Shown here one piece after another: positions 23,651-61,864 of a DNA stretch of 64,000 bases. The position numbers and the translations under genes were made by a program. The stretch comes from an uncultured Methylophaga sp. (GTDB lineage: Bacteria > Pseudomonadota > Gammaproteobacteria > Nitrosococcales > Methylophagaceae). The DNA is taken from positions 62,001 through 126,000 of the forward strand of contig NZ_CAMYKO010000006.1 in the NCBI RefSeq assembly GCF_947259025.1, written 5' to 3'. How positions within the stretch are numbered: position 1 is the first letter of the stretch; each line of letters opens with the position of its first letter. The notes beneath the pieces are model-generated. The model did no database searches. It saw nothing but the letters and a program-made list of their open reading frames with translations, and had not been told where the DNA came from.

Positions 23651-23683
23651 GAAAAAAAGTTGCCAGCCGGGGAGGCTGGCAAC
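23651..23683 (-). terminator. Rho-independent terminator
   Basis: A 10-bp perfect stem, GTTGCCAGCC at 23659-23668 with GGCTGGCAAC at 23674-23683, and a 5-nt loop are followed on the - strand by seven T residues. It would end both the short transcript starting near 23755 and read-through from the kinase gene. Confidence 0.9.
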
Positions 23684-23755
23684 AAACTCGGTTTTCAGAT
23701 TTAAGAGAGAGGGAGTGTCAATGCTTGAGTGATGCAAGTCATCTCAGCTCCTTCG
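23652..23755 (-). ncRNA. Candidate Fur-controlled small RNA of about 100 nt
   Basis: A good sigma-70 promoter overlapping a Fur-box-like site, a predicted start near 23755, and a strong terminator at 23683-23651 define a self-contained transcript of about 104 nt. This size and control resemble iron-responsive RNAs such as RyhB and PrrF, which are short, Fur-repressed and end in a Rho-independent hairpin; no sequence homology is claimed. The pyrimidine-rich stretch ACACTCCCTCTCTCTT before the terminator would be unpaired and could base-pair with ribosome binding sites. The RNA also holds a short reading frame with a strong ribosome binding site, so it may be a dual-function RNA or a small mRNA. 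Confidence 0.6.
23701..23742 (-). CDS. 13-residue reading frame inside the candidate small RNA
   Basis: ATG at 23742 starts MTCITQALTLPLS and stops at TAA (23703-23701). AAGGAG at 23753-23748 lies 5 nt upstream, a better ribosome binding site than most genes in the window have. Because transcription probably starts near 23755, the leader would be only about 13 nt. Translation is plausible, but a peptide this short may be a regulatory device and not a product. No homologue is recognised. Confidence 0.4.
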   Translation of the reverse strand: MTCITQALTLPLS

Positions 23756-23761
23756 ATTTAA

Positions 23762-23790
23762 ATAATAATGATTTGTATTAAGCTTTTCAA
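23762..23790 (-). promoter_or_regulatory. Sigma-70 promoter with overlapping Fur-box-like sequence
   Basis: On the - strand, -35 TTGAAA (23790-23785), a 17-nt spacer and -10 TATTAT (23767-23762) form a near-consensus promoter. The spacer and -10 contain CTTAATACAAATCATTATT, which matches 13 of 19 positions of the Fur consensus, including an unbroken AATCATTAT half. A repressor bound here would cover the -10. Confidence 0.65.
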
Positions 23791-25185: not shown

Positions 25186-25874
25186 TACGACTCCCGGATC
25201 AGTTGATAGCCCTGACCACGAATGGTCTCGATATAGTGATGCCCGTCATGCTGGCGGCCCAGCTTCTGTCGAATGCTGCTCATATGCACGTCAATACTGC
25301 GGTCAAAGCGGGCTAGAGGCCGGCCCAATGCCTGCGCCGATAATTCCTGTTTACTGACCACATGGCCAGCCTGGCGTGCCAGTACCTCCAGCAGGTTGAA
25401 TTCGGTGCTGGTCAAATCCAGCCGCTCACCAAACCAGAAGGCTTGTCGGGTTTCACTGTGGATCGAGAGCGGACCGACCACAAACTGACCGGCATCAATC
25501 TGGCCGCTGTTGAGTTCAGTGCGGCGCAGTATGGCACGAATGCGTGCTACCAACTCGCGCGGAGTGCAGGGCTTGGGCACATAATCATCGGCGCCGGACT
25601 CGAGGCCGATAATGCGGTCAATGTCGTCACCTTTGGCTGTGAACATTAAGACCGGGATCAGACTCTGCTGCCGAATCTGCAACAAAATATCGGTGCCTTT
25701 AATATCGGGCAGCATCATATCCAGGATAATCAGGTCAAAACGGCAACTGAGTGCGGCTTCCAGACCCTCGGTGCCATTAAAGCGGGTTTCTACAGTGAAC
25801 TGCTCCTGCTGCAGGTAATCGCGGAATAATTCCGCTAATTCCTTATCATCATCAACAATTAATATGCTGGCCAC
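25185..25874 (-). CDS. cpxR: OmpR-family response regulator, CpxR-like
   Basis: A 229-residue regulator with a receiver domain (acidic pocket D8-D10, phosphoacceptor D52 in LIILDMMLPD, and KP in YVPKPCTPREL) and a C-terminal winged helix ending HYIETIRGQGYQLI. The GTG at 25874 is preferred because GAGGT lies 6 nt upstream and the receiver begins directly (ASILIVDDD). An earlier in-frame ATG at 25907 would add 11 residues that do not look like receiver sequence. It is likely to bind the GTAAA repeats just upstream and to control itself and the divergent gene. Confidence 0.9.
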   Translation of the reverse strand: MASILIVDDDKELAELFRDYLQQEQFTVETRFNGTEGLEAALSCRFDLIILDMMLPDIKGTDILLQIRQQSLIPVLMFTAKGDDIDRIIGLESGADDYVPKPCTPRELVARIRAILRRTELNSGQIDAGQFVVGPLSIHSETRQAFWFGERLDLTSTEFNLLEVLARQAGHVVSKQELSAQALGRPLARFDRSIDVHMSSIRQKLGRQHDGHHYIETIRGQGYQLIRES

Positions 25875-25947
25875 CGGGCTACCTCGTTTAAACAATGATT
25901 CAATCATAGCGGTTCACTCTGAGGGCAACCAGATCAGGCTGCGGAAC

Positions 25948-25983: not shown

Positions 25984-26060
25984 AGCGCTTTGGGTGATAC
26001 TGGCTGCGTGTTTGGCACAACCCTTAGGGGTGAATTATTCAATCTGAAATGGAGCTTGAT

Positions 26061-26510
26061 ATGAAAAAAAGTCTGATTTTAATGAGTCTGATCCCGCTGA
26101 CGCTGCTGGCTGGACCAGCCATGGCCGGTGACAAGGACTGTGATAAAAAGCACGGCCATCATATGAAACATAAAAAGGCCGGTGATGTACCTTTTTATCT
26201 GCGTGATATTGATCTGGATGACAGTCAGAAAGCACAACTCAAAGCGATGATGGAACAACGTCATCAAAACCGTGAGTCGGGCAAAAAAGCTTACTGGGAA
26301 AACAAAAAAGCCATTATGGAATTAACCCGCGCGGAAACGCTGGACGAGGCAGCACTGGAGCAACGTATTGACCAGTCGCTGGCGATGAAAAAACAATCCA
26401 GCATGGAGCGCGCCCGCTTCCACCATGAAGTTTACAACCTGCTGACGGCCGATCAGCAACAGCAGCTGGATGCCAAAATCGCCAAGTATAAGAACAAACA
26501 CAAGCAGTAA
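26061..26510 (+). CDS. cpxP: CpxP/Spy family periplasmic protein
   Basis: A 149-residue exported protein. It has a signal peptide (cleavage after AMA, residue 21), then a His/Lys-rich stretch KKHGHHMKHKK that could bind metal, and a helical LTXXQ-type domain with LDDSQKAQLKAMM and LLTADQQQQLDAKI, the two repeats that define Spy/CpxP proteins. CpxP binds CpxA and dampens the response; Spy is a chaperone. The ATG at 26061 is chosen because GGAG at 26051 lies in front of it. The gene is divergent from cpxRA with a CpxR box between. Confidence 0.88.
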   Translation: MKKSLILMSLIPLTLLAGPAMAGDKDCDKKHGHHMKHKKAGDVPFYLRDIDLDDSQKAQLKAMMEQRHQNRESGKKAYWENKKAIMELTRAETLDEAALEQRIDQSLAMKKQSSMERARFHHEVYNLLTADQQQQLDAKIAKYKNKHKQ

Positions 26511-57086: not shown

Positions 57087-57163
<77 letters not shown>

Positions 57164-57209
57164 CTTCCTAACCTTATTTCATAATCCTCGCTTAGACAGA
57201 AAACTCCAT

Positions 57210-57286
57210 GCGCCCGTAGCTCATCCGGATAGAGCATCGGCCTTCTAAGCCGAGGGTAGCAGGTTCGAGTCCTGCCGGGCGCGCCA
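57210..57286 (+). tRNA. tRNA-Arg (TCT anticodon)
   Basis: A 77-nt cloverleaf with encoded CCA. Acceptor GCGCCCG pairs with CGGGCGC, and CGGCCTTCTAAGCCG places the anticodon TCT for AGA/AGG codons. The T loop is GTTCGAGTC. It is 46 nt after tRNA-Pro, in the same transcript. Confidence 0.97.
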
Positions 57287-61297: not shown

Positions 61298-61864
61298 TTA
61301 GCTGGCTTTACCAACAACTGGTGAGATAGTGCAGTGATAAGTCATATCATCATTTTCTGCACCAAAGCACCATACGATGTCGTTAGAGAACTCAGGACGG
61401 TAAACCGGCAGCTCACCTTCTGTGTTCAGACACGCACATTGACCACAGGTTTGCTTACCACAGCAGTCACGGTAAGCGATCAGGTAGGTCTGACCGTCAC
61501 CCGGGTTATAACAGCTGGCAACCCAGGAACTGGGGGACAGGCTGGTGCCCGGAGGACAGGAAGTCAGCGTACCGCCACAGCAGTCACAAACGTTACCGTC
61601 GATAGAACAGTGACGCCAGTAGTCACAGGCTTGCGGGTCCTGATCCTGTGGCTGCCAACCGGCTCTGGCTGCATCCAGGTTACTGGCATCCGCAGCATGA
61701 GCCTCTTTCAGACGACCACGACGATCAACTGGTAACAAGGGCAGCAAAGTGGCGCCTACCAGGAAGCCACCCAGTTTGCCGACAAAACCACGTCGACCGG
61801 TTTTGTTAGCGGTACGACGGCTCAGTTTTTCAATAGCAGCGTCAAATCCTAATTTCTTTGTCAT
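61298..61864 (-). CDS. mauA: Methylamine dehydrogenase light chain MauA
   Basis: MauA is the beta subunit that carries the TTQ cofactor. The 188-residue precursor has a twin-arginine export signal (TGRRGFVGK) and cleavage is predicted after A57. In mature numbering the cofactor residues fall exactly on Trp57 (precursor W114, SSWVASCYN) and Trp108 (W165, DIVWCFG), and the catalytic Asp32 and Asp76 (D89 and D133) are also kept. Six disulfides worth of Cys are present, which explains the need for MauD. It follows mauD by 44 nt. Confidence 0.98.
   Translation of the reverse strand: MTKKLGFDAAIEKLSRRTANKTGRRGFVGKLGGFLVGATLLPLLPVDRRGRLKEAHAADASNLDAARAGWQPQDQDPQACDYWRHCSIDGNVCDCCGGTLTSCPPGTSLSPSSWVASCYNPGDGQTYLIAYRDCCGKQTCGQCACLNTEGELPVYRPEFSNDIVWCFGAENDDMTYHCTISPVVGKAS

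Follow-up and report, generated by a model that had tools for sequence, protein, structure and literature searches.

Within 64 kb of DNA from an uncultured Methylophaga sp., hereafter the window, we find on the minus strand a compact unit that very probably encodes a Fur-repressed, iron-sparing small RNA (sRNA). The RNA is predicted to pair with the Shine–Dalgarno (SD) region of the sodB mRNA and with the mRNAs of other iron proteins. Its conservation, its predicted structure and its complementarity to sodB can all be read from the sequences compared here. The unit occurs once in the window's genome, and its parts and neighbours are the following.

25185-23836, minus strand: two-component sensor kinase, the upstream neighbour of the unit in the window
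23790-23785, minus strand: -35 hexamer TTGAAA of the sRNA promoter, from the sequence and the homologue alignment
23782-23764, minus strand: Fur-like operator, matching 13 of 19 positions here and overlapping most of the -10
23767-23762, minus strand: -10 hexamer TATTAT of the sRNA promoter, 17 nt from the -35
23754-23652, minus strand: predicted iron-sparing sRNA, about 103 nt (match of covariance model R1 at 23754-23653, 110.8 bits)
23754-23709, minus strand: 5' hairpin GANGGAG...CUCCCNUC, which pairs the SD-like GGAG
23753-23748, minus strand: AAGGAG (SD-like), preceding the ATG frame
23742-23701, minus strand: 13-codon frame MTCITQALTLPLS with its stop codon, opened by ATG and judged not to be a gene
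23708-23684, minus strand: single-stranded targeting segment UCUCUUAAAUCUGAAAACCGAGUUU, nearly invariant, changed in genomes G015 and G007
23683-23659, minus strand: intrinsic terminator stem-loop of 10 pairs, followed by a seven-T tail at 23658-23652
23629-23601, minus strand: msrB promoter CTGAAT-17-TACAAT, separate from the sRNA promoter, its -35 assigned by eye
23566-23168, minus strand: msrB (SelR domain), the downstream neighbour of the unit in all ten homologues

The TTGAAA-17-TATTAT promoter, the Fur-like site with its 13/19 match, the AAGGAG, the ATG frame and the terminator all lie where a first-pass annotation of the sequence had placed them. The case for the unit nevertheless rests on comparison, because counts of such elements in the single sequence do not exceed chance: the surrounding 4 kb hold two promoter-like sites (2.7 expected) and four terminator-like sites (4.2 expected), and the window as a whole contains 31 strand-specific Fur-like matches of at least 13 positions, the unit's own included. 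The unit rises above chance because it has homologues in 9/23 congeners, with their Fur matches and their fold z-scores.

We searched 58 genomes, comprising 24 of the genus (the window's own included) and 34 others. Clear homologues were found by DNA search in nine of the 23 other congeners, and a covariance search with R1, which was trained on the window's unit and its nine homologues so that the score of the window's unit is self-included, recovered the identical ten of the 24 genus genomes at 84.3–118.3 bits. The runner-up among the 58 genomes reached 31.1 bits and belongs to the same genus (G009), and none of the 34 genomes outside the genus gave a strong match (best, 21.2 bits). The first-pass annotation had proposed a search of relatives for the block; promoter, Fur-like site, hairpin, core and terminator are indeed kept together in 10 of the 24 genus genomes. 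Alignment of the ten shows hardly any variation in the segment UCUCUUAAAUCUGAAAACCGAGUUU and in the hairpin arms, and a drifting hairpin interior. When public species genomes were scanned for the core, records near the window's own genome possibly being left out, seven matches came up, all in Methylophaga and including M. sulfidovorans and M. aminisulfidivorans; the same scan of viral contigs gave no match. As far as searched, the sRNA thus appears confined to part of Methylophaga.

Among the 14 sRNA-negative congeners, R1 gave 13 weak matches in six genomes, which by eye resemble gene terminators or unrelated sequence, with the exception of the one in G009 (L044:1459-1574; 31.1 bits). This divergent unit, which precedes a gene resembling those for ABC-F ATPases, combines TTGCAA-17-TAATAT, overlying what by eye is a Fur-like site, with a 5' hairpin, a UCUCUCU segment and a terminator. 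It is perhaps the counterpart sRNA of that species, and its core pairs poorly with the sodB leader of G009 (-14.1 kcal/mol). A search of five genomes for a Fur half-site combined with AACCGAG returned five places, the printed matches of which contained, by eye, nothing resembling an sRNA. The kinase gene is a variable neighbour, not found within about 1.5 kb in two relatives and more distant in others. The two-component system beside the unit looks Cpx-like, judged from a gene for an LTXXQ (Spy/CpxP-like) protein (26052-26507) that is divergent from the response regulator (25188-25907). The window also carries a methylamine dehydrogenase light chain (PF02975) at 61301-61864 and two tRNA genes in proximity (57087-57283).

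All ten RNAs are predicted to fold alike, into a 5' hairpin, a single-stranded segment and a terminator of 9–10 pairs. The closing stem of the hairpin, GANGGAG/CUCCCNUC, is common to the ten folds (with GGAA in G015), the fold z-scores range from -2.2 to -4.2, and minimum-energy and centroid folds concur in nine of the ten. Covariation, which the first-pass annotation had suggested as a check on the stem, is modest overall, 12/500 shuffles being as high; three of the 10 terminator stem pairs are changed on both sides among the relatives, and every counted cell is paired. The 5' helix is nearly invariant and therefore says little either way. Judged from sequence, the unit is short and free-standing, is bounded by a promoter and a terminator of its own, and has been conserved as an RNA.

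The genes sdhC and sodB are the classic targets of iron-sparing sRNAs, sdhC being a target of RyhB. No match to the sdhC family (succinate dehydrogenase cytochrome, PF01127) was found in any of the 23 Methylophaga genomes searched, and sodB (iron superoxide dismutase) was found in 22 of the 23 congeners searched. We consider sodB the best-supported target of the predicted sRNA. The leader stretch that matches the RNA segment is ACTCGGTT. In each of the nine sRNA-bearing genomes tested, the stretches ACUCGGUU and AGGAGA are complementary to the segment; UACUCGGUUA and AGGAGA face it so that the SD is covered (9/9), and the middle UUCA of the site is present in eight of the nine. The predicted duplex energies of the cognate pairs are -17.9 to -24.6 kcal/mol (9/9). 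In G015, changes in both RNAs put G-C in place of one A-U pair of the duplex, and an adjacent further change breaks a neighbouring pair; in G007, one core change weakens the duplex. With energies corrected for accessibility, sodB ranks first among 817 sampled gene starts of the window's genome and fifth of 711 in the congener G014, where two of the four higher-ranked genes, one methyltransferase-like and one lacking a Pfam match, owe their place to sites within the coding sequence. Of the 401 regions in an initial sample, which did not contain sodB, none was as good as sodB by the corrected energy; raw duplex energy alone does not single it out, six of the 401 being as good.

TACTCGGTTA is present in the sodB leader of 9/9 sRNA-positive versus 4/13 sRNA-negative genomes (Fisher 0.0014, uncorrected for shared ancestry). 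The negative genomes with UACUCGGUUA are G002, where the contig starts 30 nt before msrB, the incomplete genomes G003 and G010, and G011, which is 99% complete; the other nine of the 13 are without it. The leaders of G010 (L118) and G011 (L123) keep TACTCGGTTA, and no sRNA was found in either genome. A compensated sRNA was sought in the sister clade with the sodB leader ACGTTGGTTA, and none of the 17 places in 14 genomes was convincing: seven are no more than the sodB leader read in antisense, and the other ten (nine loci viewed) show by eye no Fur-like promoter with a terminator. The single contig of G022 has two sodB places near both its ends (L111 and L125) with identical leaders, so that either the gene is duplicated or the ends of the assembly overlap.

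Further targets were sought among gene starts that a fixed rule, rather than annotation, assigned to open frames of 90 codons or more, and the names pqqC, fdsG, rpe and nirB are our reading of Pfam domains and sequences. The leader of a unit with cytochrome b561 ranks 4/817 in the window's genome and 2/678 in G014, through a site upstream of the SD and about 36 nt or more before the start. The other top matches at ribosome sites are a cytochrome b561, a globin-like protein and pqqC in the window's genome, and in G014 fdsG, rpe, a [2Fe-2S] oxidoreductase subunit, nirB and two genes without informative Pfam match. A cytochrome c gene ranked 4/678 and was dropped by the faster scan used for the shuffle control below. 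Beyond sodB and the b561 unit, no target ranked in the top five in two species; the accD-like gene (so named by eye) at rank 7 in the window's genome comes 13th in G014, and for the genes at ranks 6 and 8 the related genes of G014 offer no good site.

The control compared the real segment with 11 dinucleotide shuffles over 2206 gene starts. At ribosome sites the real segment gave 11 matches and the shuffles 6, 2, 2, 9, 6, 1, 6, 2, 4, 5 and 1; a smaller control (five shuffles, 1528 starts) gave 9 versus 5, 1, 0, 7 and 4. Over all positions, strong sites were not unusual (14 versus 1–18). The composition of the matches is what differs. With the Pfam domains generally regarded as iron-binding taken as such, six of 10 distinct genes are iron proteins for the real segment versus 1/40 for the 11 shuffles (Fisher 8.5e-5; leaving out sodB, for which the stretches had been picked deliberately, 3.7e-4). 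The Pfam cut-off was E 1e-5 for most shuffle proteins and 1e-3 for the real ones, and the six iron matches pass both; 10 of the 40 shuffle genes are without Pfam match, and L269, a beta-propeller with a secondary cytochrome d1 match, was scored as non-iron. The sole iron match among the shuffles is again fdsG. Conserved complementarity to iron-protein mRNAs is accordingly found for sodB (9/9) and the b561 unit (2/2), together with the enrichment over shuffles.

The presence of fdsG, pqqC and the ribulose-phosphate epimerase gene rpe among these matches raises a broader reading, in which a lineage-specific sRNA, unrelated in sequence to RyhB or PrrF, has a regulon that reaches into one-carbon metabolism. 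If true, Fur would tune methylotrophic flux via one RNA. We hold this reading tentatively and regard it as rather doubtful. Against it, Pfam does not mark rpe or pqqC as iron proteins, and fdsG also arises with a shuffled segment. Together with L224 and L254, rpe and pqqC make up the four of ten ribosome-site genes that are no iron proteins by this measure, and L224 and L254 likewise arise with shuffled segments.

In the promoter, a TTG-type -35 stands 17 nt from a TATCAT, TACTAT or TATTAT -10 in nine of the ten homologues. We scored the operator against the 19-position Fur consensus as generally known. Matches at the -10 reach 15–17/19 in seven of the ten species; in the window species and the two relatives nearest to it they come to only 11–13/19, which taken alone does not exceed chance. 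The Fur-type layout put forward in the first-pass annotation thus draws its support from the other species, and the match in the window species itself stays weak. The window's genome encodes a canonical Fur protein and contains hfq. Across that genome the Fur-like pattern occurs at 12 sites, versus 4 for a reversed control, with one site at the 5' end of a TonB receptor gene and another at that of a sigma-70-family gene. The RNA has a U-rich terminator tail and an A/U-rich single-stranded segment, which may serve Hfq binding. An sRNA with the same sodB and iron-protein targets might instead answer to a regulator other than Fur, for example one of oxidative stress, with the AT-rich palindrome incidental. 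The weak Fur match in three of the ten species agrees with such a regulator, as does the fact that msrB and sodB are both oxidative-stress genes. We find it very improbable in view of the 15–17/19 matches at the -10 in seven species, the enrichment of the predicted targets in iron proteins, and the precedent of RyhB and PrrF.

In ten of ten homologues msrB follows the unit immediately and on the same strand, and E. coli RyhB represses msrB according to PMC3650055. Both points lend themselves to a reading of the unit as the 5' leader of msrB, its terminator being an attenuator that is passed on a signal and its RNA acting only in cis. This is very unlikely, because msrB has its own promoter after the sRNA terminator: TACAAT lies between the terminator and msrB in all ten homologues, 17 nt from a CTGANN -35 read by eye, and an ACAAT element is kept in nine of the 11 congeners whose sequence before msrB is available and holds no sRNA. 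Minimum-energy and centroid folds, the two kinds compared, concur in nine of the ten, which to a degree also speaks against attenuation. Predicted pairing of the RNA to the msrB start is weak in nine of the ten (-6.1 to -13.6 kcal/mol; -18.4 in G004), and on this ground a RyhB-like direct repression of msrB in trans was rejected as well.

The first-pass annotation had left the choice between a regulatory RNA, a leader-like peptide, or both. Conservation and target complementarity favor a compact Fur-type regulatory RNA, and the peptide does not survive the comparison. A dual-function RNA or leader mRNA encoding 13 residues is extremely unlikely: a good SD, spacing and ATG occur in the window species, G013 and G005, but the arrangement of SD, ATG and frame is missing in the other seven of the ten homologues, the conserved nucleotides show the same constancy at every codon position and beyond the stop codon, and the SD-like GGAG (GGAA in G015) is sequestered by pairing in the predicted hairpin of every homologue. 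The three retained frames, in which SD, ATG and LPLS occur together, give MxCxxxALTLPLS, and amino-acid replacements in the variable half set them apart, whereas in the conserved half the nucleotides persist regardless of frame. In the other seven, the frame is stopped, shifted, run on or without a well-placed SD; G004 and G015 have open frames that run into LPLS from other starts, and the frames ending in LPLS in G022 and G007 start with GTG. The first-pass annotation had suggested looking for synonymous bias in the 13 codons; the frame is not conserved as one under coding selection would be.

On the best reading, the sRNA would work like RyhB and PrrF. RyhB, at about 90–100 nt, is similar in length to the unit. 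RyhB (RF00057, enterobacteria) shares with it a Fur-type promoter, a terminator and sodB as a target, repression of sodB by RyhB being described in PMC8544716. The two differ in that no sequence relation was found and in that the RyhB target sdhC is without a family match in the 23 congeners. The RyhB model gave no match to the window's unit at the gathering level or at E up to 10, and its 14.8 bits on the relative L012 compare with a threshold of 55. PrrF (RF00444, Pseudomonas) shares the Fur promoter and sodB among its targets; PMC13104616 describes an effect of PrrF on sodB and complementarity over the SD of brnD. PrrF is the best-scoring Rfam name, with 19.8 bits for the window's unit, 34.7 for L012, 25.3 for L013 and 25.0 for the divergent L044, but neither the window's unit nor any relative reaches the gathering threshold of 90 bits, and the match vanishes once the promoter is trimmed (L012, the one relative tested). 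The unit differs from PrrF also in being single-copy. The other seven relatives had no Rfam match at E up to 3. NrrF is another Fur-regulated sRNA that serves as an analogue; its model gave 14.9 bits on one relative against a threshold of 60. Membership in an Rfam family was rejected, the unit being below every Rfam threshold. HrrF, BrrF and IsrR follow the same iron-repressed sRNA logic, a likeness drawn from published descriptions. The available portions of the open-licence Methylophaga literature on sRNA or small RNA, including PMC11526790, contained nothing describing this RNA.

From these features we infer transcription of the unit, its repression by Fur, its binding by Hfq and the direction of regulation. 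Iron-loaded Fur would repress the promoter of an independent sRNA gene. When iron is scarce the sRNA would be transcribed to its own terminator and probably be bound by Hfq, and the segment between the two hairpins would pair with the SD region of sodB, blocking translation and probably leading to decay of the mRNA. Other iron-protein mRNAs would be hit likewise, sparing iron; the candidates are the cytochrome b561 genes, the globin-like protein, NirB, the formate dehydrogenase-type [2Fe-2S] subunit and another [2Fe-2S] oxidoreductase subunit. The single copy, the defined targeting segment and the sharply predicted sodB duplex make this testable by a two-plasmid reporter. Iron-sparing sRNAs are known as separate inventions in several groups, and the unit described here would be one for Methylophaga, a genus of marine methylotrophs. 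As such, it offers a handle on how iron limitation may restrict the oxidation of methanol and formate in these organisms.
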